NCBI GenBank assembly: GCA_023248295.1
Contig: JAHFEU010000007.1
Span: 1-35,214 of the forward strand
Length of the DNA stretch: 35,214 nt
Origin: Nitrospirota bacterium
Lineage (GTDB): Bacteria; Nitrospirota; Nitrospiria; Nitrospirales; Nitrospiraceae
Direction: 5' to 3'
Below, piece by piece: positions 253 to 31,943 of this stretch. Under the pieces are notes generated by a model. That model was not told the DNA's origin. It searched no databases and saw only the letters and a list, made by a program, of their open reading frames with translations. The translations under genes and the position numbers were made by a program. Each line of letters begins with the position of its first letter. Within the stretch, counting starts at the first letter, position 1.

Positions 253-282
253 GCCTGCCCGCTGGAGAACCCGCGGGCAGGC
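253..282. repeat. GC-rich hairpin downstream of leuC
   Basis: A perfect 10-bp inverted repeat (GCCTGCCCGC at 253-262 and GCGGGCAGGC at 273-282) encloses a 10-base loop in the 187-base gap between leuC and the cupin gene. No T-run follows, so it is not a classic intrinsic terminator. The bases around it (GCAAGCCCGCC, GGCTTGTC) resemble the GC-rich palindromic block at 19795-19857, so it may be a member of a dispersed palindromic repeat. Otherwise I see nothing in 177-363 beyond a GAGG at 341-344 ahead of the next gene. Confidence 0.45.
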
Positions 283-363
283 TTGTCGCAGCAGCGGATC
301 CGCGATTGCAGCAGAAGCGCTCATGAATAATCCGGGCTAAGAGGAACGGTCCGACCGACGGTC

Positions 364-726: not shown

Positions 727-807
727 CGGGACAGAAGCTCGGCACCGATTCGGACCGGATCGGAGCAGGACGGGACGCAGAGGTGGGCGGGAGGACGGGG
801 GACGGGG

Positions 808-1396: not shown

Positions 1397-2473
1397 TTGA
1401 AAGCGCGGATTGCGGTCCTGCCTGGTGATGGGGTCGGGCAGGAAATCGTTCCCGAGGCGGTCAGACTCCTCAAAGCGGTCGGCGAGCGATTTCACCATGT
1501 CTTCGAGTTCGTCAGCGGAGACGTGGGTGGGTCTGCGATCGACAAGGTCGGAGTCCCCTTACCGCAAGAAACACTCGCGCTGGCGCAGCAGAGCGATGCC
1601 GTGCTGTTGGGCGCGGTCGGCGGGCCTCGGTGGGACGGACTGGAGTACCATCGTCGTCCCGAGCGTGCCCTGCTCGGCCTCCGCGAGCAACTCGGCCTGT
1701 TCGCCAACCTCCGTCCCGCCAGGCTGTACCCGATGCTGGCCGAGGCCTCCACGCTGAAGCGGGAGGTGATCGAGGGGATTGATCTCCTCGTGGTCAGAGA
1801 GCTGACGGGAGGCATTTATTTCGGGAAACCCAAGGGGATCGAGAAGATCCCTGGCGGAGAGAGGGGCGTCAACACCGAGGTGTACACCACCGAGGAGATT
1901 CGGCGCATTGCGAAGGTCGCCTTCGAGGCGGCGCGCAAGCGGAGGCGCCGGGTCACGTCCGTGGACAAGGCCAACGTGCTGGAATCCTCAGAACTCTGGC
2001 GGCGCGTGGTCATTGAGGTCCACACGGGCTATCCGGACGTCGAACTCAGCCATATGTACGTCGATAACTGCGCCATGCAATTGGTCAGAAATCCAAGGCA
2101 GTTCGATGTCCTGCTCACCACGAACCTCTTCGGCGATATCCTGAGCGATGAAGCGGCGATGCTGACCGGCTCGATCGGCATGCTTCCGTCCGCCAGCCTC
2201 GGCGCGCGCGCGGGCCTGTATGAGCCGATTCACGGCAGCGCGCCGGACATCGCGGGGAAGAACCTGGCGAATCCCATCGCCACCATCGCGTCGGCCGCCA
2301 TGATGCTGGCCTACACGTTTCATCTCGACAAGGAGGCTGAGGCGATCGAGCACGCCATCCTGAAAGCTCTCGAGCAGGGGTATCGGACGAGGGACATTCA
2401 CAGCCGCGGGACCAAGTTGGTGGGGACGGCGGAAATGGGCCAGGTCATCTTGGAGAACTTCAACCAAGGGTAG
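1397..2473 (+). CDS. leuB: 3-isopropylmalate dehydrogenase
   Basis: A 358-residue NAD-dependent decarboxylating dehydrogenase that converts 3-isopropylmalate to 2-oxoisocaproate. The N-terminus has the [17 protein letters not shown] signature; the substrate and metal region includes DKANVLESS near residue 194 and [13 protein letters not shown] near 243. [18 protein letters not shown] near 276 belongs to the cofactor-binding region. The start is TTG at 1397, chosen because GGGAGG at 1385-1390 is 6 bases upstream and the sequence aligns from the first residue with the family. Its stop is followed after 2 bases by the NHL-repeat gene. Confidence 0.96.
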
Positions 2474-2475
2474 GA

Positions 2476-3720
2476 ATGCGGCGAGGGGCGTCGGTGTTAC
2501 TGTCCACGAAGTCCGGAACGATCAGCACGGTGGCCGGCACTGGTGAGCCAGCGCATGCCGGGGACGGCGGACCAGCCGTCTCCGCGGCCCTGAACGAGCC
2601 GAGGAACATCGCGCTGGATCGCGCCGGGCACCTCTACATTGCCGACTCTGAAAATCACGTGATCAGGAGGGTCGATCTCAAGACTGGAATCGTCGTCACC
2701 GTCGCGGGCTGTCCGGGGGCGGCGTCATCCGGGCAGGAGATCGGGGGTCTTCGCGGGACTTCGGCTGCCGAGGAGGCCGAGGAGGATCTGCTCGGCGGGC
2801 CTCAGCCTGGGACTCCGCAACAGTTCGCCCACCTGGCGGACCTCAGCGGAACGGTACGGTTTGTGGTGGGGGCCGCGGCCGGGGCCGGCCGGTTTCACGG
2901 AGACGGCGGTCCTGCGTCTCAGGCGACGCTGAATGTCCCAAGCGCCGTGGTGGCGGACGAAGCGGGCAACCTCTATATCGCGGATACGATGAACCACCGG
3001 ATCCGACAAGTGGAGGCGGCCACCGGAACCATGACGACCATCGCCGGAACCGGGCACCGTCGCTTCTCCGGGGACGGCGGACCGGCCGTGTCCGCTGCCC
3101 TGAACGAGCCGACGGCCCTGGCGGTGGATCGCAAGGGACACTTGTACATCGCCGATCAGAGCAATAATCGAGTCTGCCGCGTGGATCTGGCTACCGGAAT
3201 CATCACCACGGTGGCGGGCACCGGCGAAGCGGCGTATACGGGAGACAGCATCTTGGCGTCTGAGGCCGGCTTGGCCGGGCCCAGCGGCCTGGCCTTGGGT
3301 CCCGACGGTGCGCTGTATATCGCTGATACCTTCAACGGGCGGATTCGCCGGGTGGATCCGGAGACCGGCCTGATCAGCACCGTGGCGGGAGACGGCGGGG
3401 AGTACCGCTATCAGGGACGGGCGAACGAGTTTTCGACGAGTCTGTCTCGTCCCTACGGGATCGCCCTGGATCGGGAGGGGCATATCCTGATCACCGATTC
3501 GGACAGCCATCTCATCAGGAAATGGGACAGAACGAGAAAGATCGTCACGCGAGTGGCCGGGAACGGCATGGCCCAGTTCGGGGGCGATGGCGGCCCGCCT
3601 GAGGACTGCAGCCTGAATTACCCGTTCGGAGTCGCGGTCGATGACCAGGGGAATCTGTATATCGCCGACACCTTTAATCATCGGATCCGCATGATCAGCA
3701 ACGCACAATGCAAAAGTTGA
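2476..3720 (+). CDS. NHL-repeat beta-propeller protein
   Basis: A 414-residue protein built from NHL repeats, each with a TVAGTG/GDGGPA segment, an ALNEP-type segment and a YIADxxNHRIR segment. I count six YIAD-type blades, near residues 52, 165, 222, 280, 339 and 398, so a six-bladed propeller is plausible. Residues about 80-135 are an acidic, less regular insertion between the first two blades. No signal peptide or membrane segment is visible, so it is probably cytosolic. This is unusual, since most bacterial NHL arrays of this type are exported. The ATG lies 2 bases after the leuB stop and AAGGGTAGGA provides an SD, indicating co-transcription with leuB. The function is unknown; NHL propellers usually bind ligands or proteins. 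Confidence 0.85.
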   Translation: MRRGASVLLSTKSGTISTVAGTGEPAHAGDGGPAVSAALNEPRNIALDRAGHLYIADSENHVIRRVDLKTGIVVTVAGCPGAASSGQEIGGLRGTSAAEEAEEDLLGGPQPGTPQQFAHLADLSGTVRFVVGAAAGAGRFHGDGGPASQATLNVPSAVVADEAGNLYIADTMNHRIRQVEAATGTMTTIAGTGHRRFSGDGGPAVSAALNEPTALAVDRKGHLYIADQSNNRVCRVDLATGIITTVAGTGEAAYTGDSILASEAGLAGPSGLALGPDGALYIADTFNGRIRRVDPETGLISTVAGDGGEYRYQGRANEFSTSLSRPYGIALDREGHILITDSDSHLIRKWDRTRKIVTRVAGNGMAQFGGDGGPPEDCSLNYPFGVAVDDQGNLYIADTFNHRIRMISNAQCKS

Positions 3721-4792: not shown

Positions 4793-5038
4793 ATGCCGGA
4801 CTGGACTGGCGTGGGGAAGACGCTGATTCTCGTGGGCGGGATCCTGGCCCTTCTCGGTGCCCTCCTGACTCTGTCCGGCAAGTTCCCGGGGACGGGCGGC
4901 GGCTTCGGATGGTTCGGGAGGTTGCCCGGCGATATCCTGATCAAGCGTGAGAACTTCACTGTTTACCTCCCTCTGACAACCAGTATCCTGATCAGCGTCG
5001 CGGTGAGTCTGCTGCTGTACTTCCTCTCCAAACGGTGA
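4793..5038 (+). CDS. DUF2905 small membrane protein
   Basis: An 81-residue protein with two transmembrane helices (about residues 8-28 and 57-79) flanking the conserved loop GWFGRLPGDILIKRENFTVYLP, whose GDI and FxxYxPL residues mark the DUF2905 family. The function is unknown. Members are often found next to queA, ruvB or spoIID genes, as here. Its stop at 5036-5038 overlaps the start of the SpoIID-like gene, which implies translational coupling. Confidence 0.9.
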   Translation: MPDWTGVGKTLILVGGILALLGALLTLSGKFPGTGGGFGWFGRLPGDILIKRENFTVYLPLTTSILISVAVSLLLYFLSKR

Positions 5039-6321
5039 TGACGATGATCGCGGTCTGTGCAGTCTGGAGCCTGCTGTTCTCGGTCCTGCTCGCCGAACCT
5101 GTCCAGGCGGCGGACCTGATCCGCGCCCTGTTGTTTCAGGAGGCCCAGCGGGTGCTGATCACGTCCGGACGGGGAGTCGTCGTCCAGTTCTCCGACGGCG
5201 CCGAACAGTTCGTGACCACTCCAGTGATCGTGACGCAGCTCGAGGGCGGCATGACCTTGAACGGAGCACGGGCTCCTTCCGACTTGGTGAACGTCCGGGG
5301 ACGTGGCGACGATCTCGTCATCACTGTTGCGGAGGCCTTGGTCTCGGACCGACAGCAGGATTGGTTTGCCGGCAAGGTCCCCCCAGTCGGCGGACCCGCG
5401 ATCCCACCCGCGGATGCAGGGCCGCCTCCGATGGGGGTCCTCCGAGGGACGGCGCCCCTCCACACACTCGTTCTGGGTGGAGCGTTGCAGGTCATACGCC
5501 GCGGGAAAAGCTTGATGGTGATCAATGAGGTGGATCTCGAAGAATACGTGAAGGGGGTGGTGCCCTCGGAGATGAGTGCTGGCTGGCATCCGGAGGCTCT
5601 CAAAGCGCAGGCGGTCGCCGCCCGGACCTATGCCCTCTACCAGCGGATGATGAATGCAGGCCGGGACTATGACGTCGTCGCCGGTATCCAGGACCAGGTC
5701 TATCGAGGCCGGTATGGGGTCGATGAGCGTGTCCAGCAGGCGGTGGAGGCGACGCGCGGGCTGGTGCTCATGCACCAGAATGCCCCGGTGCTCGCCGCCT
5801 TCTCCTCTACCGCTGCCGGTCCTACCGAAGACGCGATCAATGTCTGGTCGAAGGACCTGCCATACCTGAAGGGTGTGGAGTGCCCCTTCGACACGAATTC
5901 TCCCTATTATCGCTGGAGGGCCGAGTTCACCCTGCAGGAGCTCGAGAACAGTCTCAGACGTCAAGGTCTCGCGGTGGGCACCATTGCCAGCGTGACGCCC
6001 TTCTCGTTCAGTCGTGCCGGGCGGGTAGGCCGGCTCAGGATCCTGCATTCCGACGGGGAACTGATCCTGCGCGGCACGGATTTCCGCCGTGTGGTGGGCT
6101 ATACGGCGATCCGGAGCACGCAATTTGAGGTCCAGTCGGTGGGAAGGACCGTCGTGCTGGCCGGGCGCGGATCGGGTCATGCGGTGGGTCTCTGCCAGTG
6201 GGGAGCGAAGGAATTGGCGGAGCTCGGCTATCCGTTCGCCGTCATCCTGCAGTATTATTTCCCAGGGACGGAACTCAAGGACGCCCGGTTTGGAGCGCAG
6301 GCCCCCTCGCCCACCCCTTGA
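5038..6321 (+). CDS. SpoIID/LytB-domain protein, exported
   Basis: About 427 residues with an N-terminal signal peptide (hydrophobic core AVWSLLFSVLLA, likely cleavage after VQA). The second half is a SpoIID domain with VDLEEYVKGVVPSEM, HPEALKAQAVAARTYALY and the C-terminal GRGSGHAVGLCQWGA segment. SpoIID is a peptidoglycan lytic transglycosylase in sporulating bacteria; in non-sporulators such proteins are thought to act in wall remodelling or amidase activation. The organism shows no other sporulation gene here. I take ATG 5038, which forms a TGATG overlap with the previous stop. GTG 5035 is in frame and equally possible. Its own stop overlaps the queA start in the same TGATG arrangement. 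Confidence 0.88.
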   Translation: MTMIAVCAVWSLLFSVLLAEPVQAADLIRALLFQEAQRVLITSGRGVVVQFSDGAEQFVTTPVIVTQLEGGMTLNGARAPSDLVNVRGRGDDLVITVAEALVSDRQQDWFAGKVPPVGGPAIPPADAGPPPMGVLRGTAPLHTLVLGGALQVIRRGKSLMVINEVDLEEYVKGVVPSEMSAGWHPEALKAQAVAARTYALYQRMMNAGRDYDVVAGIQDQVYRGRYGVDERVQQAVEATRGLVLMHQNAPVLAAFSSTAAGPTEDAINVWSKDLPYLKGVECPFDTNSPYYRWRAEFTLQELENSLRRQGLAVGTIASVTPFSFSRAGRVGRLRILHSDGELILRGTDFRRVVGYTAIRSTQFEVQSVGRTVVLAGRGSGHAVGLCQWGAKELAELGYPFAVILQYYFPGTELKDARFGAQAPSPTP

Positions 6322-20646: not shown

Positions 20647-21159
20647 TTACTCCTTGTTCTCCTGGGCCATCAGCGGCTGTTTCAGGATCCACATTTCGTA
20701 GATTGGAATAACCATCATCACAAGAAAGCTGACGGTCATCAAGAGATCGCCCGTCAGCATCGTGAGGACAAATTCGGGCGAGACGTACCTGATCAGCCAA
20801 GGAGAGATGAGATCCAGGATGACTCCTCCGAACGCCGTATAGGTCATGAGTAATTTCAGGCTGGTGCTGGCCATAGTCAGATAGAGCACGTGGGTCAGGA
20901 TCATGAACACCACCGGCATCGTGAACAAGTGGAAATGGGTAATTTCTGCCAGCTCTCGGAATGACATGGGTTCGCCGAAGGTCGCATCAGACCCACGGTA
21001 GTGATCGGCGATACCCTGCGGCGAGAGGCTAGTCATGCTATGCGCCCAGAAGAAGCTGAAGGCAAACCCAACGAGCATGAGCATGAGGAAGAGCGTGTAC
21101 ACGAGCCGAATGTGGCGATCGGCATCCCGCAGGCGAAACCGGGTGTTAAAATTGCGCAT
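20647..21159 (-). CDS. four-helix membrane protein with conserved-looking histidines
   Basis: I do not recognise a named family. The 170-residue protein has four hydrophobic segments: about residues 17-39, 77-97, 102-123 and 130-156. A 35-residue loop lies after helix 1 (SLSPQGIADHYRGSD and on). Histidines sit at 40, 53, 75, 77 and 90. His77 and His90 are both in helix 2, 13 residues apart, the spacing used by bis-heme b-type membrane cytochromes to hold two hemes on one helix pair. Whether it binds heme is unproven. It is the last gene of an operon with an FMN-binding protein and a porin, which suggests a membrane electron donor for the flavoprotein. ATG 21159 has GGATGGG upstream. Confidence 0.75.
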   Translation of the reverse strand: MRNFNTRFRLRDADRHIRLVYTLFLMLMLVGFAFSFFWAHSMTSLSPQGIADHYRGSDATFGEPMSFRELAEITHFHLFTMPVVFMILTHVLYLTMASTSLKLLMTYTAFGGVILDLISPWLIRYVSPEFVLTMLTGDLLMTVSFLVMMVIPIYEMWILKQPLMAQENKE

Positions 21160-21176
21160 TCGGTCCCATCCGGCGC

Positions 21177-21866
21177 TCAGTCACCAAACAGGGATTCCAA
21201 GAATCCCTTCTCCGCTCGCCTCGCCGCCATCGTGTCGCTTCCTCGCCCCAGCGGTTTCAGATAGAACTCGTCAATCAGGACTAAGACGCGTTTCACTCCG
21301 GCGCTTATGGAACGCACCGACATGGTCGCGCCGCTGATATTGACGATGTCCTTGTTGATGCGGATCGGGTCCAGCACCGTTTTGCCCTCATATTGCGAGT
21401 TGAACCGCTTTCGCCCGACTTCGCTCCCTCGAGCTTCGCGGAAGACCAGCAGTTCCACGTCGGTGCAGTAGCCTCTCGGATCCGCACCAACCATGTAGGT
21501 CATGTGCTTGTGCTTGCCGATCGTGTTGTGGACCATCGCGTAGCCATCCACTGTCGCGCCGGTCTCGCCAATGTAGATCTCGAACTCTTCTTCTGGAAAC
21601 TTCCACCCGATCCGCGATTCAACCAAGGCCTTCTGATCCGGGCTCAGGCGCAGCACTTCTTTTCTGATCCGCTGCGACTTGGGCAGCATGATCTTGACCG
21701 CTTCTTCTTCCGACATGAAGACCTCGGCGTGGGTCATCTCTTGTTCGGTGAGATAGCGCTTCAGCTCGCTGTCCCAGATTCGCTCCGCTTTGGCCTCTGA
21801 CAGCGCGCTGAGCAAGAAGATCAGCGGGAGCGCGACAGCGACAGGCAATCTCAGGTACCTGGACAT
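21177..21866 (-). CDS. exported FMN-binding domain protein, likely covalently flavinylated
   Basis: A 229-residue protein with an N-terminal signal peptide (VAVALPLIFLLSALSEAKA). The C-terminal half is an FMN_bind domain with GKTVLDPIRINKDIVNISGATMSVRSISAGVKR. SGATMS (178-183) fits the [ST]GA[TS]x[ST] sequence at which ApbE attaches FMN through phosphoester to Thr, as in NqrC and RnfG; the predicted site is Thr181. The ApbE gene is divergently transcribed about 2.5 kb away, in the same regulatory unit. The start has GAAGGA 7 bases upstream and overlaps the preceding lipoprotein gene by 16 bases. The likely role is electron transfer in the periplasm. Confidence 0.88.
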   Translation of the reverse strand: MSRYLRLPVAVALPLIFLLSALSEAKAERIWDSELKRYLTEQEMTHAEVFMSEEEAVKIMLPKSQRIRKEVLRLSPDQKALVESRIGWKFPEEEFEIYIGETGATVDGYAMVHNTIGKHKHMTYMVGADPRGYCTDVELLVFREARGSEVGRKRFNSQYEGKTVLDPIRINKDIVNISGATMSVRSISAGVKRVLVLIDEFYLKPLGRGSDTMAARRAEKGFLESLFGD

Positions 21867-22330
21867 CCGTGTTCCTTCAGCTTGACATTGAGTCTACTCT
21901 GCACGTCGGCGATGACTTCCTTGGAAGGGTCAGTTGGTGCCCAACCGAACATGCGTGAGCCACCGCGAAAGGCGTACCGCTCACGTTCCTCGGCGAAGCT
22001 GACCCGGGTGACATCGCTCATCCGCTCGAGAGTCAGGACGATGCGGGACCGGTCTCTACTATCCCCGATCTCGCGTCGCATGGCACCGAACGTCCGGCCT
22101 GGAGCCGGAATTTCGAGCCAGTTCGTCTGAATAAAACCCTTGCCCTTGTCCTGCACCTTCACTGAACGGCTTTTAACGGCATCCAGAGCGGAATCCCAGA
22201 CTTGGTCGTATGAACAGACCACGTAGCGCTCCCGGAGGCTGGCGAACGATGTGCATCCTGCAAACGCGCTGACAACCAGCAGTAGGCCGATCGTACGAGC
22301 CAAAGGCATCGGGATCATCGTCCTGCGCAT
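21851..22330 (-). CDS. putative lipoprotein of unknown function
   Basis: A 159-residue protein with an N-terminal basic segment, hydrophobic core (TIGLLLVVSAFA) and a cysteine at 26 in SAFAGC, a near-lipobox (Phe at -3 is atypical). The mature part has YDQVWDSALDAVKSRSVKVQDKGKGFIQTNW, a pattern reminiscent of BamC-like and related small lipoprotein folds, but I cannot assign a family. ATG 22330 is chosen because GGAGGG is 7 bases upstream and it begins the signal peptide; a longer start at 22390 would fall inside the porin gene. The gene is 16 bases after the porin stop and overlaps the FMN-binding gene. Confidence 0.78.
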   Translation of the reverse strand: MRRTMIPMPLARTIGLLLVVSAFAGCTSFASLRERYVVCSYDQVWDSALDAVKSRSVKVQDKGKGFIQTNWLEIPAPGRTFGAMRREIGDSRDRSRIVLTLERMSDVTRVSFAEERERYAFRGGSRMFGWAPTDPSKEVIADVQSRLNVKLKEHGCPGT

Positions 22331-22346
22331 ATGGGTCCCTCCACCC

Positions 22347-23834
22347 TCAGAAGTATGTTGCCAACATGGCGAGGAACCCGTTCCCATCAATCCGAGTGGT
22401 GATGCTGTTACCCGGATTGTTCACGAAGGACTGAATGCTGGTGTCTTTCTGCGTATTGAACATATAGCTGAGCTTTAAGACGGTGTCCTCGATGGGTCGG
22501 AAGTTCAGGCCCAAAGTCAGCCGTTGAAGGTCCCGCTGATTGCTGAGAGCGCCGGTCGCGGTCATCGTTTTGTTGCCTGTGTCGGTGTCCACGGTTTCCC
22601 AGCGGACGACCGCCGTGAAGGTCGACGCGTCCGAGAAATGACTCGGGGCCAGCTTCTTCAGAAACTCCGGCATGAAGTGGTAGTTGGCCTGGATGTAATA
22701 GCCAAACATCCCGTCCGGGCCTATCGTCGCGGGGGTGGTTCCCTGATTGCCTGTGATTCGTGACCAGGCCGCTTCGCCGATGAGTTCCAATGGTCCTCGT
22801 TGGAGGGTCCAGTCTATGGCATAGATGCCCACGTTGTTGTTTTGATTGTTGACCCCGGCTGCATCCTTATTGCTGTATTGGCTGTAGTAGGTGGAGCCTG
22901 CGATCTCGACGCCTAACCGCGGGCTGAACGCGACCCGGGCGACCACGCCCTTGTTGTCGTTGTTGTCCCGCGACACGCTGCCTCGGCAATTCCGCAGGCC
23001 GCTGGTGTCGGTGATTGATCCGCCCTGAGCGTTGCAGCCCATTCCGTTGACGGCGTACAATTCATAGTCCACTTTGGAGAGAGCGGTGGGATAGAGGGTG
23101 CCGTAAATGCCCGCCCCCGACTCAAACCAGGTGCTGGGAATGACCAGCCGATCAACCATCGGTCTGTCCGGCAGGTCGTTCAGCGGGGAGTCATGCAGGA
23201 GGTTGAACTTTCCGACCGGCATCAGAAGAATGCCGGCGCGCAGGTTGATGGTCTCTGTCAGCAGATAGTCGATCTGGGCGAACTCAAGCTGCATCGAGCC
23301 AGAGGCAGTGTTACCGGTGCCGGTAATGGTGCTGCCCGGAGAATTTGTTCCTCCACGCTCGAACTCAATTTCCGTCGCGAACTTCACGCGATCGGTGATG
23401 TCAGCGTAGATAAAAGGCACCATGCGCTCCTGGTTGAAGCTGTTGCGGCTGGGATTATCCAGGGTCGGTCCCGTCAGCGAGCCATACTTGATGTCTGCGT
23501 AGCCACCGATGGTTGACTTGGGTACGGCTAAGAATGGCTTGGCATAGATCAATCGTCCGGATCCGGTTGATCCGAACGACAACGGCACCTTTTCCTCGCC
23601 AGGCCGCTCCACCTTAATCTCGGTGATGGGCCCCGTTCCGCCCGATGGCGGGACTGCGGTCGGAACTCCTGGCTCGCGCTCGCGTTCCCGCTCCCGCTTT
23701 TCGTGTTCCTGAAACTGTTGCAACTTCTCTTCCAATTGCTTCACCCGTTCCTCGAGGTTCTTCTCTTCTGCCAGCGCCGGCATGGCATCGACCGCGCAGA
23801 GTGCCAGAGCCCCGAGGAGTGCCCACATCCTCAT
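22347..23834 (-). CDS. outer-membrane beta-barrel porin with N-terminal coiled coil
   Basis: A 495-residue protein with a signal peptide ending near MPALAEE, then a coiled-coil/charged segment (NLEERVKQLEEKLQQFQEHEKR followed by an Arg-Glu run). A linker rich in Pro and Gly leads to a barrel of about 400 residues with alternating strands. It ends in the aromatic FLAMLATYF, the C-terminal phenylalanine typical of outer-membrane barrels. The coiled coil may form a trimeric stalk, as in peptidoglycan-bound porins. Substrate is unknown. It has GGAGGA 7 bases ahead of ATG 23834 and is co-oriented with the flavin genes downstream. It is not a TonB-dependent receptor: there is no plug domain and it is too short. 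Confidence 0.88.
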   Translation of the reverse strand: MRMWALLGALALCAVDAMPALAEEKNLEERVKQLEEKLQQFQEHEKREREREREPGVPTAVPPSGGTGPITEIKVERPGEEKVPLSFGSTGSGRLIYAKPFLAVPKSTIGGYADIKYGSLTGPTLDNPSRNSFNQERMVPFIYADITDRVKFATEIEFERGGTNSPGSTITGTGNTASGSMQLEFAQIDYLLTETINLRAGILLMPVGKFNLLHDSPLNDLPDRPMVDRLVIPSTWFESGAGIYGTLYPTALSKVDYELYAVNGMGCNAQGGSITDTSGLRNCRGSVSRDNNDNKGVVARVAFSPRLGVEIAGSTYYSQYSNKDAAGVNNQNNNVGIYAIDWTLQRGPLELIGEAAWSRITGNQGTTPATIGPDGMFGYYIQANYHFMPEFLKKLAPSHFSDASTFTAVVRWETVDTDTGNKTMTATGALSNQRDLQRLTLGLNFRPIEDTVLKLSYMFNTQKDTSIQSFVNNPGNSITTRIDGNGFLAMLATYF

Positions 23835-23950
23835 GGTGTTTCCTCCTTCCCCGTGTGTCGGGGAATCTCGACTCGGGACTCTGTCGGTCTCTGGTCTTCT
23901 GGGTAAAGATCGTTACATAGTCCGCCGCTGGGTCGCGGCTGTCGCTTCCC

Positions 23951-24151
23951 TCACCGGTGAACGTTCGGAGCCAGTCCCACGTCGCGCCCCCCCATGGAGT
24001 AGGGGATCACGACGATCCGTTTGCACCGTTTGCATTTCAGCTCGACGCCGTCGTTGCGCAACTTGGCGATCAACTGGCCGCACTCACATCGTGCGTCGGT
24101 GCGCTCGGTTGCCACGGGTTTTGTTGAGTTCATGGAGTTGCCGGGTAGCAT
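23951..24151 (-). CDS. Com-like zinc-ribbon protein
   Basis: A 66-residue protein with a CxCGQLIAKL ... GVELKCKRCKRIVVIP pattern: four cysteines arranged as Cys-x-Cys and Cys-x2-Cys about 17 residues apart. This is the zinc-finger layout of the phage Mu Com translational activator and the related small Com-like proteins on bacterial chromosomes. It is the first gene after the Fur-box promoter on the minus strand and 116 bases ahead of the porin, so it may be a regulator or accessory factor of that operon. The start is uncertain: ATG 24151 has only an AAGAG upstream, and ATG 24133 is in frame. Confidence 0.68.
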   Translation of the reverse strand: MLPGNSMNSTKPVATERTDARCECGQLIAKLRNDGVELKCKRCKRIVVIPYSMGGRDVGLAPNVHR

Positions 24152-24170
24152 GGCTCTTGGTCATGTGGTT

Positions 24171-24199
24171 GAAATTGAGAACGATTATTAGTATCCTAA
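24171..24199 (+). promoter_or_regulatory. sigma-70-type promoter for apbE
   Basis: TTGAAA (24171-24176) and TATCCT (24194-24199) are 17 bases apart on the plus strand. The hexamers match consensus at 5 and 4 of 6 positions. The Fur-box-like 15-mer at 24178-24192 occupies the spacer, so a bound repressor would block polymerase. Confidence 0.55.
24178..24192. promoter_or_regulatory. Fur box in the divergent apbE / porin-operon promoter
   Basis: TGAGAACGATTATTA matches the 7-1-7 Fur consensus TGATAAT-G-ATTATCA at 12 of 15 positions. It lies within the plus-strand promoter spacer and abuts the minus-strand -10, so one Fur dimer site could control both directions. Fur itself is encoded about 7.5 kb downstream. 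Confidence 0.65.
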
Positions 24200-24219
24200 T
24201 CAGCAATACCCTGTCAAGC
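24192..24219 (-). promoter_or_regulatory. sigma-70-type promoter for the Com-like/porin/flavin operon
   Basis: On the minus strand a perfect TTGACA (24219-24214) is followed after 16 bases by GATACT (24197-24192; 4 of 6). The start would lie near 24185, inside or next to the Fur box, with a leader of about 34 bases to ATG 24151. Confidence 0.6.
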
Positions 24220-24322
24220 CCCTTTTTTCTGCTGAAAAGATCAGGCGAGGATGCTAGGCTCGGCTGGACGTAACCGATTGGTTTTTGTGATGATACTGGC
24301 GCTTCCTGCGGAGGATCGTTGT

Positions 24323-25393
24323 ATGAGACGGAGTCTCGCCTTTCTTATGCGACGAAGTTTTCAAGACTCCAGCGCCGTCACCGCTCGGGTTGTCTGTGCG
24401 TCGCTTCTTGCCGCCATCTCGACACTCGCGAGTTGCGCGTCCGTCCCCGGGAAGACGGAGCCTGTCCTCTTGAGACGGGCTCAGATGCACATGGGGACGC
24501 TGGTGACGATCACGGCGATAGCCCAGACGCAGGCCGCCGCCCAGGCCGCCATGACGGCTGGGTTTCAGGAGATCCGCCGACTGGAAGAGTTGCTCAGCAC
24601 CTGGATACCGACAAGCGAGCTCTCGCGTGTGAACCAGGCGGCTGGCCGGGAGCCGGTGAAGGTAGGTCACGATACCATGATGCTGTTGAAGCGATCGCTG
24701 GAGGTAGCCGGCCTGACAGCGGGGGGCTTTAACATTGCTATAGGACCAGCCATTGACGCCTGGGGCTTTTACGGCCGCTCGCGGATTCCTGAGGCATCAG
24801 AATTGGTGGCCCTCCGCCCGTTGGTTGAACTCAAGCAAGTCCGCCTTGATCCAATCGCCGGGACAGTCTATCTGGCGAGACCCGGTATGCGGATTGATGT
24901 GGGCGGGATCGGGAAAGGTTTTGCGGCGGACCTGGCCGTGGAGGTGATGAAAAGCGCGGGTGCTCTCGGCGGAGTGGTGGCGCTCTCGGGAGATATGAAG
25001 ACGTTTGGCCTCGTGCCAGACGAGACGCGCTTGGTGTTCGGTATCAAGCATCCGCGGAAAGAAGGAGCTGTCTTGGCTCGTGTGGAACTTCAGGACGAAG
25101 CGATCTCCACGGCCGGTGATTATGAGCGCTACTTCGATCGGAACGGCGTGCGGTATCACCACATTTTGGATCCCCGGACGCTCCAGCCTGCCCACGGGTG
25201 CCAGAGCGTCACGGTCGTGGCGGAGGAGGGGGTCATGGCGGATGGGCTGGATACCGGAATTTTTGTAATGGGTCCCCAGCGAGGCATGGAACTAGTTGAA
25301 AAGCTGGCCGGGGTCGAGGCGATTATTGTCGATCAGGCAGGCAACATTCTTGTCTCGTCCGGATTGAAGGACAGAATTCAACTTATACAATAG
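24323..25393 (+). CDS. apbE: FAD:protein FMN transferase (ApbE family), lipoprotein
   Basis: A 356-residue ApbE, which uses FAD and Mg to attach FMN covalently to Thr in exported flavoproteins. The signal peptide ends in a good lipobox LASC, so it is anchored in the envelope. Motifs are MHMGTLVTITA at the start of the mature domain, DVGGIGKGFAADLA, GVVALSGDMKTFG, ISTAGDYERYF with HHILDPRTLQP, and ADGLDTGIFVMG, whose acidic and Thr residues bind Mg and FAD phosphate. ATG 24323 has GGAGG 8 bases upstream and starts the signal peptide. An in-frame ATG at 24251 would add 24 unusual residues. Its probable target is the FMN-binding protein at 21177-21866. Confidence 0.92.
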   Translation: MRRSLAFLMRRSFQDSSAVTARVVCASLLAAISTLASCASVPGKTEPVLLRRAQMHMGTLVTITAIAQTQAAAQAAMTAGFQEIRRLEELLSTWIPTSELSRVNQAAGREPVKVGHDTMMLLKRSLEVAGLTAGGFNIAIGPAIDAWGFYGRSRIPEASELVALRPLVELKQVRLDPIAGTVYLARPGMRIDVGGIGKGFAADLAVEVMKSAGALGGVVALSGDMKTFGLVPDETRLVFGIKHPRKEGAVLARVELQDEAISTAGDYERYFDRNGVRYHHILDPRTLQPAHGCQSVTVVAEEGVMADGLDTGIFVMGPQRGMELVEKLAGVEAIIVDQAGNILVSSGLKDRIQLIQ

Positions 25394-25431
25394 ACAGACT
25401 GAGCAGGTTTGGGCCAGAGTGAGAGCTGCGA

Positions 25432-25752
25432 ATGAAGAGAATCTGCCGAGCATCCCAGGTTCTGCTCATGCTGCTGCTGTTCGGTACTGTTTCCTGTGAT
25501 CTCCGTGAGGGCGCGTATTTCCAGGACAAAGTCAATGAGGTCACGCAGGAGAAGGTGGCCAAGCGCTATGGATACCCGCATAAGACGGAGGCGCTGCAGA
25601 ACGGGGGGGAGGCGTGGACCTACTACGACCGGGGGAGCGGAACGGCGAGCTACACCGGCTACGCGACAGGAACCTTCTGTCGAGCTTACATGCTGACGTT
25701 CGACAAGGAGGGCGTCCTGCGCGACTGGACACAGCAACAGTGTCGCAACTGA
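25432..25752 (+). CDS. small lipoprotein, SmpA/BamE-like fold candidate
   Basis: A 106-residue protein with a signal peptide (VLLMLLLFGTVSC) and Cys22 as possible lipidated residue; Thr at -3 makes the lipobox imperfect. The mature part has EVTQEKVAKRYGYPHKTEALQNGGEAWTYYD and a final YMLTFDKEGVLRDW, the pattern of small SmpA/OmlA-type domains (a helix pair, then a sheet with a tryptophan or tyrosine-rich strand). A role in the outer membrane is inference. It lies 38 bases after apbE and is probably co-transcribed with it. Confidence 0.75.
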   Translation: MKRICRASQVLLMLLLFGTVSCDLREGAYFQDKVNEVTQEKVAKRYGYPHKTEALQNGGEAWTYYDRGSGTASYTGYATGTFCRAYMLTFDKEGVLRDWTQQQCRN

Positions 25753-25785: not shown

Positions 25786-26679
25786 TTATCGCTCCAGTCG
25801 GTAACTGATCGGCACTTGCACGACCACCTGAGGTTTCCCCAAGGGATGCTTCAGCATCAACGGGGACGCGAGCCTCAGGATCTCAAGGGCATCTTGATCC
25901 AATACGGAATGGCCAGAGCTCTCGGCGACCGCGAGATCCAGGAGATGGCCGTCCTCTCGGATGACCACTCGAAGCACCACCCTTCCTTCCCATCGATTCA
26001 GTCGCGCCATGTGCGGATATCGCTTGAGCTGCTCGACTTTGCTCCACAAGGTTTCCGCCAGCCAGCCGTAATCCACCTTCGTGGCGGGAATCGAACGAAC
26101 CGGATCCTCATGGACCGCCGGGCGGGTGGCCTCCACGACCGGACGGGCAACCACCGTGGGCTCGGGCGGAGAGTCGGGGACCGCCTCGGCGCTCACCGCC
26201 GGCGTAGCCGGCGCTTCAGCTTCTCGGACCGCCGGAGGAGCATCCGAGACGGATGCGGGCTCGGTTGTCTCCACCGGAACGACCTGCTGCGGCCTCGCGA
26301 CGGCTTGAACCGTGCGGTCAACCGTCTGGGTGGCCTGCACGGGAGTCTGCACGACCGGGGCGATCTCGCTGACCTCCTGCCTCACTTCTTGGCGGATCAC
26401 CTGCTGCACCGGTTTGGTGACGAGCTGCGGCTCGACCGGCTGCGCCGCCGTTGGGGTCGGTTCTGCTGCAGATGGTCGTGGCTTTTCCATCTGCGCCGGT
26501 ACCGGCGCCTCGGCCACCGACACATCCCATCGAAACGGCTCGGGTTGGGGCGCGACGTGGAGGTCTGACACCAGCGTGATCGCCGCACCGACGGCGACGG
26601 CATGGAGCAGCACCGAGAGCACCCAGCTCTGCAGGTACCGGTGATGCTCACCGCCATGATACACGGGCAGGGTGTTCAC
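25786..26679 (-). CDS. tonB: TonB-family energy transducer
   Basis: A 297-residue protein with an N-terminal membrane anchor (about residues 17-37, SWVLSVLLHAVAVGAAITLV), a long Pro/Val/Glu/Ala-rich periplasmic spacer (about 45-205) and a C-terminal TonB domain. The C-terminal domain contains YPHMARLNRWEGRVVLRVVIREDG and ILRLASPL and ends in VPISYRLER. It transmits proton-motive force from ExbB-ExbD to outer-membrane receptors. GTG 26679 overlaps the exbD stop in a GTGA arrangement. No TonB-dependent receptor is in the window. Confidence 0.92.
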   Translation of the reverse strand: MNTLPVYHGGEHHRYLQSWVLSVLLHAVAVGAAITLVSDLHVAPQPEPFRWDVSVAEAPVPAQMEKPRPSAAEPTPTAAQPVEPQLVTKPVQQVIRQEVRQEVSEIAPVVQTPVQATQTVDRTVQAVARPQQVVPVETTEPASVSDAPPAVREAEAPATPAVSAEAVPDSPPEPTVVARPVVEATRPAVHEDPVRSIPATKVDYGWLAETLWSKVEQLKRYPHMARLNRWEGRVVLRVVIREDGHLLDLAVAESSGHSVLDQDALEILRLASPLMLKHPLGKPQVVVQVPISYRLER

Positions 26680-27050
26680 AACCGCGCCACCTCCAGGCTG
26701 ACCTGTCGAAACCCCAGGCCACGGACTGCATCCACGACTTCGACAAAGCGCTCCAGCATGGTCACGCGATCCGCGCGAACGACCACGGGCGAATCCTTGG
26801 GGTGGGGGGTCAGCAGGATTTTTAATCCGTCATCGGACACTTGCCGCTCATTCATGAACAGGCGGCCGTCCGCCGTCAAGGTGATCACCAGAGGGACATC
26901 CCGACGGTCACCGGCTTCCTTCGCCTTAGCCAGATCCACCGGAATTTGTCCGGTCGTGATGAACGTGGCGGTGGTCAGCACGATCACCAGCAGCACCAAC
27001 ATCACATCAACGAGCGGGATGACGTTGATCTGGTCCAGTTCACGCTCCAT
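26676..27050 (-). CDS. exbD: biopolymer transport protein ExbD
   Basis: A 124-residue ExbD/TolR protein with a short cytoplasmic N-terminus, one membrane helix (about residues 11-33) that contains the conserved proton-path Asp in NVIPLVDVMLVLLVI, and a periplasmic domain with PLVITLTADGRLFMNER and SPVVVRADR. It forms a complex with the ExbB and TonB products of the adjacent genes. It overlaps exbB by 11 bases and tonB by 4. Confidence 0.94.
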   Translation of the reverse strand: MERELDQINVIPLVDVMLVLLVIVLTTATFITTGQIPVDLAKAKEAGDRRDVPLVITLTADGRLFMNERQVSDDGLKILLTPHPKDSPVVVRADRVTMLERFVEVVDAVRGLGFRQVSLEVARL

Positions 27051-27465
27051 GTTGCACCTTGTACAGCGTCATCAATTCAGTGACTCGACGGCGGAGCACA
27101 TTGTTCATCACCACGCAGGGGATTGCCACGAGCAAGCCAACCGCGGTGGCTTTGAGCGCAAGGCTCAGTCCGATCATGATCGTGCTGACGGCAATCGCCC
27201 CGGAGGTCCCCATGGTATGGAAGGTCAGCATGATGCCGAGCACGGTCCCCAGCAGGCCGATGTACGGAGCATTCGCCGCCACCGTGCCGATGACGACCAG
27301 TCGCTTAGTTAGGGTCATTTCACACAATTGCTGCGTGGGGAACTGAGTCAGGTCCACGCGGCGGTAGAACAGCCACCGCTCCACCGCGACCGCCACCGAC
27401 CAGACGCTCAGAACCAGCAATAATCCGATCACCCCGTAGTCCACGACCGATTTCAAAGCTTCCAT
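27040..27465 (-). CDS. exbB: biopolymer transport protein ExbB, short form
   Basis: A 141-residue MotA/TolQ/ExbB proton channel subunit. Helix 1 is near residues 8-28 (VIGLLLVLSVWSVAVAV), then a short loop, then NAPYIGLLGTVLGIMLTFHTMG and IMIGLSLALKATAVGLLVAIPCVVMNNV for helices 2 and 3. ATG 27465 is used because upstream residues up to an in-frame start at 27654 do not look like ExbB and overlap the neighbouring ABC gene. The short cytoplasmic loop resembles ExbB of TonB2-like or epsilonproteobacterial systems more than the 240-residue enterobacterial form. Confidence 0.9.
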   Translation of the reverse strand: MEALKSVVDYGVIGLLLVLSVWSVAVAVERWLFYRRVDLTQFPTQQLCEMTLTKRLVVIGTVAANAPYIGLLGTVLGIMLTFHTMGTSGAIAVSTIMIGLSLALKATAVGLLVAIPCVVMNNVLRRRVTELMTLYKVQHGA

Positions 27466-27530
27466 AGTCAGCACACCTCGCGCATTAGGACCCGGACCGG
27501 ATTCAATCACTCGGAACTTGCCAATACGGC

Positions 27531-27598: not shown

Positions 27599-28729
27599 TT
27601 ACCGGTCTGGTGGCCGGACGCGATCCTGCTCGAAGAGCACGATATGGGTAGCAATCACCTGAAGCTCTACCGGGGTTCCGACCGGGTAGACGCTGGTCGA
27701 GACCTCGCTGCTGTGCACCACCTGTCCGGAGGGCAGCCCGATGGTATACAGATTTTCGGACCCCCGAAACTGCCTGGCCAGGATCCGCGTGGCGCCATTC
27801 GCCAGTGGAGCGATGTGCACGTCATCCGGGCGGATCATAACCACGACTCTCGCCCCACCGTGATAGCCGACCTGGTTCGGAAATTCTCCGATCTCGGTCA
27901 CCACCTTCCCGTTCTCGACGATGCCCGGGATGAAATCGGCCTGGCCCACGAAGTCCGCGACGAACGGGGTGGACGGCGTGTGGTAGATTGCCTCCGGCGT
28001 GTCGAACTGCTCGAGACAGCCGTTGTTGAGCACCGCAACGCGGTCGGCTAAGGCAAAGGCTTCTTCGTGGTCGTGGGTAACCAGGATGGCGGTGGTCTTG
28101 GTGCGCCTCAGCAGGTCGTGCAGATCCTCCCGCATCTTTCGCGTCATGTCAGGATCCAGATTGCTGAACGGCTCGTCCAGCAGCAGGACGACCGGCTTCT
28201 GCACCAGGGCTCGGGCCAGCGCGACCCGCTGCTGCTGGCCCCCTGAAAGCTCGTGGGGGTACCGTCGCTCGAGACCGGTCAGCCCCGTCATCGCCAACAT
28301 CGCGTGCACCTGTGTCTCCCGTTGGACGGAGGGCAGGTCCCTGAGTCCGAAGGCGATGTTCTCGACTACGCGCAGATGAGGGAACAACGCGTATTCCTGA
28401 AAGACCATTCCTACGCGCCGACGTTCGGTCGGGAGCAGAACCCCCGGCGCTGAGGCCAAGTGTCCCTCCAGGTAGACTTCACCCTCCACTACGGGTTCGA
28501 ACCCGGCGATGACTCGAAGCGTCGTGGTCTTCCCGCATCCGGACGGACCCAGCAGGCAGAGGATTTCTCCCTCGCGGACAGAAAAGGACACTTCCGAGAT
28601 CGCTGCACGCCCGACCTCATAGGCGCAGGTGACCTTGCGGAGCTCCAGGACCATCGGGCGGGTCCCTTCATCCGAGGAAACTCCCCCCGCCTGGGCGGCG
28701 GTCTTCTGGTCCGCACCGATGGGCCTCAT
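27599..28729 (-). CDS. fbpC: ferric-iron-type ABC transporter ATP-binding protein
   Basis: A 376-residue ATPase of the FbpC/PotA class. Walker A is GPSGCGKTT near residue 60, the Q-loop sits in GMVFQEYALFPHLRVVENIAFGL, the signature is LSGGQQQR near 160, Walker B is VVLLLDEPFSNLD and the switch His lies in LVTHDHEEAF. A C-terminal TOBE-like region with VVVMIRPDDVHIAP follows. It energises import with the adjacent permease and binding protein. ATG 28729 has GAGAAGG 7 bases upstream; a start at 28654 (MVLELRKV) would give the minimal family form. The substrate is iron by context only. Confidence 0.9.
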   Translation of the reverse strand: MRPIGADQKTAAQAGGVSSDEGTRPMVLELRKVTCAYEVGRAAISEVSFSVREGEILCLLGPSGCGKTTTLRVIAGFEPVVEGEVYLEGHLASAPGVLLPTERRRVGMVFQEYALFPHLRVVENIAFGLRDLPSVQRETQVHAMLAMTGLTGLERRYPHELSGGQQQRVALARALVQKPVVLLLDEPFSNLDPDMTRKMREDLHDLLRRTKTTAILVTHDHEEAFALADRVAVLNNGCLEQFDTPEAIYHTPSTPFVADFVGQADFIPGIVENGKVVTEIGEFPNQVGYHGGARVVVMIRPDDVHIAPLANGATRILARQFRGSENLYTIGLPSGQVVHSSEVSTSVYPVGTPVELQVIATHIVLFEQDRVRPPDR

Positions 28730-28751
28730 CCCGATACCTTCTCTCCCTTCA

Positions 28752-30338
28752 TCAGGCCGCCCGCCAGTCCTTCGATACCAGCAGCAAAAGGGCCGGCAGA
28801 GTCATAATCACGATCAGGAGTGCCGAAGGCGCCGCAAGCTTGTAATATTCCTCGCTGGCCTCGAGCCAGACCCGGACGGCCAGGGTATCGAACCCCACCG
28901 GGCGGAGCAGGAGCGTGGCCGGCAATTCCTTCATGCTCAGGAGGAACATGAGGACCCACGCGGCAATGAACCCCCCCCGGACCAGCGGCAACGTGGTTTC
29001 CCGGAAGGTGCGGACGGGTCCAAGACCGAGACTCCTGGCTGCCTCTTCCAAATTCGGCGTGACCTGCTGAAGCGCCGGCTCCATCGTCTGCAATCCTGCC
29101 GGAAGGAAATGCACGATGTATGCCACGATCAGGACCACGGCTGTTCCATACCAGAACGGGGCAAGATGGGAGAACAGGACAAGGAGCGCCAGGGCCCCCA
29201 CCGGTCCCGGCAACACGTAGCCGGCATAGGCGGCCTGCAGACAGAGCACATTCAGCCTCGACGGCCATCGGCTTGCAAGATAGGCGAGGGGGCTCCCGAC
29301 TAGTAAGGCGAAGGTCGCCGCCAACCCGGAGAGGAAGACGCTATTCCAGACGAACCCCAGGAACCGGGCATCCACCGCACCTTCCGCCACCGCGGAACCG
29401 CTCCAGTGGATCAGCAAGAGCGCCGGCAGGCCAAACGCGAGGCCGAACACCACGACCATGTAGAGCGTGATGAGCCCGGTCCCCAGCGGGCCGCATGGTT
29501 TTCGCGCCGGCGCCCGGTATCGCCCGGTCGTCTGGTAAAAGCGGCTCCGCTCTCTGAACCAGCGCTCGGTCACCAGGAAGATGAGGGCAAACAGGACCAG
29601 CAACAGACTCAGGACACCGGCGGCGGCCTGGTCGTACCGGCCGGTGATCTGTTGATACACCGCATACGTGAAGGTCTGGAAGCGCAGGAGAGAGACCGCC
29701 CCGAAGTCCGAGGCTACGTAGAGGATCACGAGGGACAGACCGGCGACGATGGCCGGCCGGATCAGGGGCAAGGTCACCTTCAGCATCGTGCGCTGGCGGG
29801 AGGCGCCGCAGACCCGCGCCACTTCTTCATAGGACAGGTTGAAGTTGAGGAGGGCGGCCCTGGTGAGCAGGTAGACGAACGGGAACGTGTCCAACGTCAT
29901 GACCAGGGTTGCCCCCGCGTAACTGTATGGCGAGAACACCCGTCCCTCCGGTCCTGTCCAGGTCTGCCAGAGCTGCTCGACCGGCCCGCCTGCGCCGAGC
30001 AAATAAGTATAGACATAGGCGAGCACGTAGGTGGGCATGGCGAGGGGGAGGACCAACGCCCATTCCCAGACCTGCCGGCCAGGGAAGCTGTACCGGACCA
30101 CGAGCCATGCCAGCGAGACCCCCAAGGCAAACGTGCCGGCCGAGACGCTGACGGCTAGCGAGACGGTGTTGAAGAGCAACTCGGGGATCCGCGTATTCCA
30201 CAGCCGGCTCCAGACCGCGGAGTCTGCGGAGAGCGCGAGATAGACGATGTACATCAGCGGCGCGCAAATTAGCCCCGCGACTCCCAACGCCAGGAAGGAG
30301 ATGGAAGGAGGGACCGTCTGGCGGATTGTTGTCGTCAC
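28752..30338 (-). CDS. fbpB: ferric-iron-type ABC transporter permease, fused two-domain form
   Basis: A 528-residue inner-membrane protein with about twelve helices. Two BPD_transp_1-type halves are each marked by an EAA loop: EVARVCGASRQRTMLKVTLPLIRPAI near residue 190 and EEAARSLGLGPVRTFRETTLPLVRGGF near 435. This fused duplicate is the layout of FbpB/SfuB iron permeases. The start is GTG 30338, 5 bases after the stop of the binding-protein gene, without a clear SD, so translation is probably coupled. Confidence 0.9.
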   Translation of the reverse strand: MTTTIRQTVPPSISFLALGVAGLICAPLMYIVYLALSADSAVWSRLWNTRIPELLFNTVSLAVSVSAGTFALGVSLAWLVVRYSFPGRQVWEWALVLPLAMPTYVLAYVYTYLLGAGGPVEQLWQTWTGPEGRVFSPYSYAGATLVMTLDTFPFVYLLTRAALLNFNLSYEEVARVCGASRQRTMLKVTLPLIRPAIVAGLSLVILYVASDFGAVSLLRFQTFTYAVYQQITGRYDQAAAGVLSLLLVLFALIFLVTERWFRERSRFYQTTGRYRAPARKPCGPLGTGLITLYMVVVFGLAFGLPALLLIHWSGSAVAEGAVDARFLGFVWNSVFLSGLAATFALLVGSPLAYLASRWPSRLNVLCLQAAYAGYVLPGPVGALALLVLFSHLAPFWYGTAVVLIVAYIVHFLPAGLQTMEPALQQVTPNLEEAARSLGLGPVRTFRETTLPLVRGGFIAAWVLMFLLSMKELPATLLLRPVGFDTLAVRVWLEASEEYYKLAAPSALLIVIMTLPALLLLVSKDWRAA

Positions 30339-30343
30339 GGATG

Positions 30344-31429
30344 TTACCGGAGGCCTGCTTGTTCGATGAGCGCCATCGTCGGCTCCCGAAGCTCGCCGAG
30401 TCGAGTCAAGGGAACCGCGGCCGCGCGAAAACTCTCCCGCGTCGGCAAGGCCGGGTCGGCCGGTAAATCCGGCCGCAGAGGGTACTCCTTGTTGAGATCC
30501 GCGAACATCTTCTGCCCTTCCTGCGACACGAGGAATTCGACCAGACGCCTGGCCGAATCGAGATGACGGGTGTGCTTGGTGATCCCGACGCCGGCCACGT
30601 TCATGATCGCGCCCATGCCTCCCTGGTGCTGGTCGAGCATCAGGCCCGAGATCGGCGCTCCTGGCTGGGACGACAGGTGCCGGTAGATGTAATAGTGATT
30701 GACGAGGCCCACTGCGACCTGCCCTTTTGCGACCGCCTCCACGATTTGGGAGCTCTTGCCGTACACATGATTCCCGGCGTTCGCCTTGAGACCATCCAGA
30801 AAGCGCCTGGTGCGCTCGTCGCCGTACACGGCTTTCAGGACCGACACGCCGGCCTGAAGGTATTCGCTCCCGGCGTTCGGGATCGCGATCTTATTGTTCC
30901 AATGCGGCTCTGCCAGATCCAGGATCGACCGGACCTCGGGCGGCTTGACCAGCGTCGTGTTGTACACCAGAATCCAAAACCGTCCTGAGACTCCCACCCA
31001 GCTATTGTCCGGGGCTCTGAAGGCAGCCGGGATCACTCGCTCCACTGCCTTCATGTCCAGGGGGAGCAGGAGTCCCAGCTCCCGCGCGCGCTCCAGGCTG
31101 CCGGCGTCATTGGCGATAAACAGGTCGGCCGGTGTCCGATCCCTCTCGGCTTGCAGTCGGTTGACGAGTTCCGTGGTTCCTGAGGAGAGCAGGTCCACCG
31201 CGATGCCGGTTTTGGCCTGGAATGAATCGAGGACCGGTTTGATCAGGCGCTCCGCGCGGCCCGAGTAGACGACCAACCGGTCAGCCGGCTCGCTGTAGGC
31301 CGCCGTGACCAGGATGGCGCCGACTGCAGCCGTCAGGGTCAGGAGGCGACCCAGCCCCTTCGTGCCTCGATGGCTTCGATACCCGCAACGCTCACGGATG
31401 ACCGGGCGCTCGTCGTCATTTCCGGGCAT
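30344..31429 (-). CDS. fbpA: ferric-iron ABC transporter periplasmic binding protein
   Basis: A 361-residue class C-type ferric-binding protein. The signal peptide has an unusually long charged n-region (about 26 residues) before LLTLTAAVGAILVTAAYS. The mature start RLVVYSGRAERLIKPVLDSFQAKTGI is typical of FbpA/FutA. The ligand segment VGLVNHYYIYRHL holds the Tyr-Tyr pair that binds Fe(III) in this family. It captures iron in the periplasm for the FbpB-FbpC channel. ATG 31429 is the only sensible start in frame, although no SD is visible. Its upstream region shares an 11-mer with the apbE promoter region. Confidence 0.9.
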   Translation of the reverse strand: MPGNDDERPVIRERCGYRSHRGTKGLGRLLTLTAAVGAILVTAAYSEPADRLVVYSGRAERLIKPVLDSFQAKTGIAVDLLSSGTTELVNRLQAERDRTPADLFIANDAGSLERARELGLLLPLDMKAVERVIPAAFRAPDNSWVGVSGRFWILVYNTTLVKPPEVRSILDLAEPHWNNKIAIPNAGSEYLQAGVSVLKAVYGDERTRRFLDGLKANAGNHVYGKSSQIVEAVAKGQVAVGLVNHYYIYRHLSSQPGAPISGLMLDQHQGGMGAIMNVAGVGITKHTRHLDSARRLVEFLVSQEGQKMFADLNKEYPLRPDLPADPALPTRESFRAAAVPLTRLGELREPTMALIEQAGLR

Positions 31430-31481: not shown

Positions 31482-31510
31482 AAAAAAAGGGGGCCGCCGT
31501 CAATGGCGGC
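31482..31510 (-). terminator. intrinsic terminator of fur
   Basis: On the minus strand GCCGCC and GGCGGC (31510-31505 with 31498-31493) form a stem with a 6-base loop, followed by CCCC and seven T. The fur stop codon (31500-31502) lies inside the hairpin. It separates fur from the fbpABC operon downstream on the same strand. Confidence 0.75.
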
Positions 31511-31943
31511 ACCTCGAACACAACCCGTACAGCTCCAATTTGTGGGTCTGGATGGTGAACCCATTTCGGCGGGCGACTTCTTCCTGGAGGCGTTCGATGT
31601 CGCAGTTCTCAAATTCCACGATCTTCCCGCAGGCCGTACAGATCAGGTGGTCGTGATGCCCCTTGTGAGCGACATTGTCGTATTGAGTTTGGGCGCCGAA
31701 ATGGCGCGCCTGGGCTAAGCCTGCCTCACAGAACAGGTTCAACGTCCTGTAAATCGTGGCCAGACCGATGTGAGGATCCTTCCTCGCCAGCGAGCGGTAC
31801 ATCTGCTCCGCGGTGATGTGCTCCATCTTGAGGAACATGTTCAGGATTTGCTCGCGCTGGCGGGTCAGCTTGAGCTGATGCTTCGCGAGGTGGTCCTTCA
31901 GTAGTTCGATGTCCTTCAGATTTTTGCTCATGGCGGCAGACAT
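31500..31943 (-). CDS. fur: ferric uptake regulator Fur
   Basis: A 147-residue Fur-family repressor. A winged-helix DNA-binding domain spans about residues 15-85 (LTRQREQILNMF, HIGLATIYRTLNLF). The metal and dimerisation domain has HKGHHDHLICTACGKIVEFE with His96, His97 and His99 and two Cys pairs, 102/105 and 142/145, for the structural zinc. Iron-dependent repression of the neighbouring operons is expected. ATG 31943 is in frame with a second ATG at 31931; neither has a clear SD. Its own promoter carries a Fur box. It could be a Zur or PerR type, but genomic context favours iron. Confidence 0.93.
   Translation of the reverse strand: MSAAMSKNLKDIELLKDHLAKHQLKLTRQREQILNMFLKMEHITAEQMYRSLARKDPHIGLATIYRTLNLFCEAGLAQARHFGAQTQYDNVAHKGHHDHLICTACGKIVEFENCDIERLQEEVARRNGFTIQTHKLELYGLCSRCRH

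Follow-up and report, generated by a model that had tools for sequence, protein, structure and literature searches.

What is the function of a flavin-transferring enzyme that is encoded divergently from an outer-membrane porin, at a predicted Fur box and near iron-uptake genes? This question is raised by a stretch of 35,214 nucleotides (hereafter the window) of contig JAHFEU010000007.1 from a Nitrospirota bacterium (assembly GCA_023248295.1). Its minus strand encodes, in order of transcription, a zinc-ribbon protein, a porin, a small lipoprotein, an exported protein with a domain binding flavin mononucleotide (FMN; the protein is termed FMN_bind below) and a four-helix membrane protein (4TM), and the flavin transferase ApbE is encoded divergently (Table 1). 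We propose, with a probability of about 0.58, that these genes form an iron-repressed envelope electron-transfer module dedicated to iron assimilation.

The gene set is widely conserved. 4TM was detected in 47 of the 61 relatives and in 82 of 246 genomes from across the phylum, and the best 80 of the 150 contigs matched by it are nearly all titled Nitrospira, Nitrospiraceae, Nitrospirota or Nitrospirae (two are labelled Nitrosospira); a search of plasmid sequences for relatives returned no match. In two locus sets, which overlap in part because both draw on public Nitrospira genomes, the 4TM gene adjoins the FMN_bind gene at 38/39 loci and at 77/77 Nitrospira-group loci, all flanked by 800 bp or more. 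Among loci with enough flank, the porin was present at 36/36 and 64/66, and so was the lipoprotein (36/36 and 64/66). ApbE, looked for within the fetched stretch only, occurred at 27/33 and 52/54 loci, and one or more of tonB/exbBD, fbp and fur at 27/33 and 52/54 loci with enough flank. Furthermore, in a set of genomes enriched for those without 4TM, the presence or absence of FMN_bind tracks that of 4TM in 32 cases out of 33, the sole exception being a 72%-complete assembly (G027) with a partial FMN_bind match; the two proteins therefore appear to be inherited and lost as a pair. One genome (L042) has the FMN_bind, lipoprotein and porin genes twice, side by side, which suggests that part of the operon was duplicated locally. 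A cultured species, N. defluvii (locus L111), is among those with the gene set.

A predicted Fur box stands between the divergent units. Its conserved form, GAGAACGATTATTAATATC, was found with at most 3 mismatches at 48/54 and 22/33 loci, mostly in an intergenic position beside the zinc-ribbon or porin gene. At the same threshold it matched 5 times in 1.53 million other positions and once in the 2.5 Mb genome of the window (at this module); no match arose in 100 shuffles of the window. Two of the five off-site matches lie upstream of fur (L063 and L064), which supports its reading as a Fur box. Fur sites overlap at 6-bp steps, and so do the matches to the Escherichia coli consensus in the window (24171, 24177 and 24183), a second and weaker stack of which precedes fur. 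Among distant loci, boxes occur at the promoter of the porin or of ApbE in L183, L184 and L188, and at fur in L188 and L185; none was seen at L182, L186 and L187 at the threshold used. Judged on these sequences, there is good support for assigning the module to iron-regulated electron transfer in the envelope.

The predicted flavin acceptor of FMN_bind is Thr181 (codon 21324-21326), in a SGATMS motif that is identical in 41/41 proteins. The window genome, which is 89% complete, has a single match to ApbE and a single match to FMN_bind, both in the module, and the same pairing of one enzyme with one substrate is seen in most of the module-bearing relatives; families f2 and f4 have their ApbE on other contigs. 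FMN_bind appears to be exported, as judged from its Sec-type signal (AKA/E), which was read by eye from the translation, like the lipoboxes of the lipoprotein (AFAGC) and of ApbE (LASC). Similarly to NqrC and RnfG, which are flavinylated by ApbE, FMN_bind combines the domain of that name with an acceptor threonine of the SGAT type; unlike RnfG, it scores 18 bits with RnfG models, against a cutoff of 102, and no Nqr or Rnf genes were recognised in the neighbourhood. We infer that ApbE attaches FMN to Thr181 of FMN_bind. A sequence-only reading of the window had already proposed this flavin transfer and a Fur box at the shared promoters, and had made its case depend on the recurrence of the gene set, with Fur boxes and iron genes, in other Nitrospirota genomes. 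Such recurrence is what we observed, and the flavin transfer and the Fur box are both well supported.

In distant Nitrospirota, the porin and 4TM genes recur beside fur, often with those of FbpB and FbpC, and at five of these loci (L182-L185 and L187) a single fused protein contains both ApbE and the FMN_bind domain, which ties the enzyme to its presumed substrate; L186 is truncated at the end of its contig. The fusions consist of an N-terminal ApbE without an obvious signal, a central twin-arginine signal of the RRxFL type and a C-terminal FMN_bind with SGAT or SGAS (Pfam was run on the L183 fusion alone, the others being assigned by the ApbE profile and the motif). Because the signal is internal, the ApbE part may remain in the cytosol, and this layout suggests that it acts there before the flavinylated product is exported by the twin-arginine translocation (Tat) system.

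4TM is conserved within the order, and more distant forms of it occur across the phylum. It bears an HxH-x12-H signature on one helix (helix 2, residues 67-93), in which H75 (codon 20935-20937) and H77 (20929-20931) are invariant and H90 (20890-20892) occurs in 24/24 FMN-linked members and in 0/11 other relatives. In addition, H53 is present in 22/24 FMN-linked members, and H40 in closer relatives only. The FMN-linked clade thus has conserved histidines in its transmembrane helices, as have membrane b-type cytochromes. As for the fold, 4TM belongs to no Pfam family, and its profile gave nothing significant against the sequences of the PDB. Two AlphaFold2 models of the monomer, a poorer one from close homologues only (predicted local distance difference test, pLDDT, 77) and one with distant members added (pLDDT 89; predicted template modelling score 0.82), matched no PDB fold below E = 1, and therefore no cytochrome fold can be assigned to 4TM. 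No Pfam match to PepSY-, MsrQ-, NapH-, DsbD- or NqrB-like families or to DUF4405 was obtained with 25 4TM members at E up to 0.5; a weak match to Urate_ox_N (0.0066) in two members was noted as a lead only and not used.

The relatives of 4TM that lie outside the gene set in Nitrospirota (240-280 amino acids) keep the HxH on the equivalent helix, together with equivalents of W121 and W157; unlike 4TM, they have no equivalent of H90, and 9 of the 11 examined carry a CxxCH motif between helices 1 and 2. One of them (L193) has a cytochrome b/c gene close by. The attachment of c-type heme takes place in the periplasm, so that this loop should be periplasmic, in agreement with the predicted inside location of the positively charged N terminus of 4TM; H75 and H77 would then lie on the periplasmic side, and H90 on the cytosolic side. 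This anatomy fits a transmembrane transfer of electrons to periplasmic FMN, possibly by way of a putative heme. Since it combines the lack of Pfam and PDB matches with the HxH-x12-H signature and the CxxCH relatives, 4TM probably represents a new class of membrane redox proteins linked to flavinylation. A wider proposal, to which we would give somewhat less than even odds, is that this class, defined by HxH-x12-H and perhaps acting as a heme-bridged homodimer, acquired a flavinylated periplasmic partner in place of c-type heme, which would have generated an iron-sparing, Fur-controlled reductase in Nitrospira, with the ApbE of distant relatives operating in the cytosol before Tat exports the fused substrate.

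In the mechanism that we propose, iron-loaded Fur would leave the shared promoter, thereby allowing the expression of both divergent units, one for the zinc-ribbon protein, the porin, the lipoprotein, FMN_bind and 4TM, and the other for ApbE. The envelope ApbE would attach FMN to Thr181, and 4TM would draw electrons from the quinol pool, probably via heme b or directly, and hand them to the FMN bound on FMN_bind. The reduced flavin could then reduce ferric chelates that have entered through the porin or through TonB receptors, thereby freeing iron for import.

How well does this agree with the means of iron import? The FbpA of the window is nearest in sequence to Fe(III)-binding FutA/FbpA proteins of known structure (7li0, 1.6e-52), and FutA (Tery_3377) of Trichodesmium is a ferric iron binder (PMC6254336). 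Few matches to importers of ferrous iron were found in the Nitrospira relatives: FeoB was detected in 0/41 and FTR1 in 0/25 genomes of the order (positive controls were detected), and Nramp exceeded its cutoff in 3/25. VIT1 was not found in the window genome and has homologues in some relatives. The absence of FeoB and FTR1 matches, together with the Fe(III)-type FbpA, leaves no recognised importer for a reduced product, and this speaks against a ferric reductase, as does the lack of resemblance of 4TM to any known cytochrome in the Pfam, PDB-profile and PDB-fold searches. Also to be set against it, FbpA is kept in several relatives without the module, and FbpA is missing from genome G002, in which the module is accompanied by ExbBD and fur. 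We rejected the idea that FbpABC requires the module, as FbpA persists without it. Because each occurs alone, the tie of the module is with iron and Fur more than with FbpABC. The flavin and Fur parts of the iron-repressed flavinylated chain put forward in the sequence-only reading are thus retained, and its final part, the reduction of Fe(III) ahead of uptake by FbpABC, is weakened by the ferric type of FbpA, the missing FeoB and FTR1 and this mutual independence. A ferric reductase feeding FbpABC is nonetheless plausible on the sequences, and the context points to a possible Fe(III) reduction for iron uptake. Given the missing Fe(II) importer, either reduction merely frees chelated iron for re-oxidation and capture by FbpA, or FbpABC takes whatever iron it is given, or the electrons run the other way.

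Such a reversed flow would make the module an assimilatory ferrous oxidase, in which FMN and 4TM oxidise Fe(II) that has come in through the porin, the electrons going to quinone and the Fe(III) to FbpA. The Fe(III)-type FbpA and the few Fe(II) importers, which leave no obvious route in for Fe(II) except its oxidation, are what this scheme would explain; we regard it as quite improbable, since the known flavinylation systems for iron are interpreted as reductases (PMC8238504) and G002 carries the module without FbpA. The c-type heme motif of the 4TM relatives invites another interpretation, that under iron starvation the flavoprotein stands in for a c-type cytochrome in a respiratory chain of the periplasm, without acting directly in the reduction of iron for uptake. 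It would agree with the FMN-linked clade having an FMN_bind partner and no such motif, with the cytochrome b/c gene near the CxxCH relative L193, and with the flavin/cytochrome interchange and iron-poor settings discussed by Meheust et al. (PMC8238504). However, a purely respiratory substitute would have no need of the porin and lipoprotein that the operon keeps, nor of the iron-uptake or TonB neighbours of 52/54 loci, and we consider it unlikely. Lastly, the occurrence of the module with ExbBD and fur, and without FbpABC, at L037 and L048, as well as that of TonB-dependent receptors in 13/13 genomes examined, could mean that another iron-linked periplasmic substrate (a siderophore ligand, a disulfide or copper) is reduced instead of ferric ion, or that the module serves the upkeep of TonB or the porin. 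This we hold to be very improbable, as no recurring oxidoreductase gene was recognised nearby, in neighbourhoods whose open reading frames (ORFs) are only partly annotated. The reading that we prefer is thus still that of an iron-repressed electron-transfer module for iron assimilation.

The genes of the window and those of the distant loci and 4TM relatives are collected in Table 1. From the porin through 4TM, the genes are spaced by 16-17 bp or overlap. Past ApbE, the minus strand encodes TonB, ExbD, ExbB, FbpC, FbpB, FbpA and Fur, in that order along the window. These neighbours, and the porin, lipoprotein, FMN_bind, 4TM and ApbE, had all been named in the sequence-only reading and are present; the first gene of the operon, the zinc-ribbon ORF, had been overlooked. 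This ORF is kept across the phylum with its CxCG and KCxRCKR motifs, stays under every Pfam cutoff and shows at most a weak similarity to Zn_ribbon_4 and Mu Com.

Table 1. Positions of the module, its neighbours and related genes (aa, amino acids; FAD, flavin adenine dinucleotide).
Locus	Feature	Position	Strand	Remark
Window	4TM, four-helix inner-membrane protein	20647-21159	-	candidate transmembrane electron carrier
Window	FMN_bind protein, exported, Sec-type signal	21177-21866	-	Pfam PF04205, 26.4 bits vs cutoff 22
Window	small lipoprotein, fold not recognised	21851-22330	-	lipobox AFAGC; no Pfam above cutoff
Window	outer-membrane porin, Porin_O_P-like, with signal peptide	22347-23834	-	Pfam 1.1e-7, 31.9 bits vs cutoff 20.9
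Window	four-Cys zinc-ribbon protein, 60 aa, first gene of operon	23951-24133	-	conserved CxCG and KCxRCKR motifs
Window	Fur box, between divergent units	24177-24195	.	GAGAACGATTATTAGTATC
Window	ApbE FAD:protein FMN transferase, exported lipoprotein	24251-25393	+	Pfam 1.8e-79; LASC lipobox
Window	small lipoprotein	25432-25752	+	patchy occurrence in related loci
Window	TonB, ExbD, ExbB (neighbours)	25786-27528	-	
Window	FbpC, FbpB, FbpA ferric-iron ABC importer (neighbours)	27599-31429	-	
Window	Fur	31500-31943	-	two overlapping weak Fur-box matches upstream, 31949 and 31955
L182	ApbE-FMN_bind fusion ORF, ~505 aa	5107-6630		
L183	ApbE-FMN_bind fusion ORF, ~505 aa	6943-8466		
L184	ApbE-FMN_bind fusion ORF, ~505 aa	7495-9000		
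L185	ApbE-FMN_bind fusion ORF, ~505 aa	7395-8906		
L187	ApbE-FMN_bind fusion ORF, ~505 aa	9229-10755		
L151	CxxCH relative of 4TM	154-867		
L152	CxxCH relative of 4TM	1992-2753		
L153	CxxCH relative of 4TM	5006-5812		
L191-L196	CxxCH relatives of 4TM			

That flavinylation is linked to iron assimilation is already known: clusters of the PepSY-, MsrQ-, DsbD-, Nqr-like and P19 classes have been connected with iron transporters and Fur, and some of the PepSY clusters are Fur-repressed (Meheust et al. 2021, PMC8238504). The present module resembles the PepSY, MsrQ and P19 clusters in that ApbE or an FMN-binding protein, mostly with a membrane electron-transfer protein, lies by iron genes; it differs from them in its constant porin and in its neighbour, FbpABC and not VIT1 or FTR1/P19, and, in Pfam, 4TM has no match to any of the five classes described there. 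Vibrio VciB, a PepSY-like ferric reductase, is likewise a membrane protein tied to extracytosolic iron reduction; unlike 4TM, it has PepSY similarity, and it is not associated with flavinylation components (as cited in PMC8238504). 4TM also recalls DUF4405, an ApbE-linked histidine-rich membrane protein that binds heme b, and FezC, whose heme sites were proposed to arise by homodimerisation (Huang et al. 2024, PMC11334425), since all are small membrane proteins with conserved histidines, linked to flavinylation or iron storage. It differs from them in lacking a DUF4405 match and in having four helices with the three invariant histidines on a single one. By the Pfam and PDB tests run, 4TM fits none of the described membrane classes. 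Nitrospira and porins are not mentioned in the main texts of PMC8238504 and PMC11334425, the supplementary tables of which may list such clusters. The literature searched contained no paper joining Nitrospira, FMN-binding, ApbE and iron, and neither the membrane component, nor the operon, nor the ApbE-Tat-FMN_bind fusions were found in it.

Major nitrite oxidisers and comammox bacteria, the Nitrospira have a heavy demand for iron. If our proposal is correct, a Fur-controlled flavin chain would make their iron acquisition testable, and 4TM would extend the known flavinylation classes by a membrane component. The module would then also offer a clean case of a flavin possibly replacing heme when iron is scarce.

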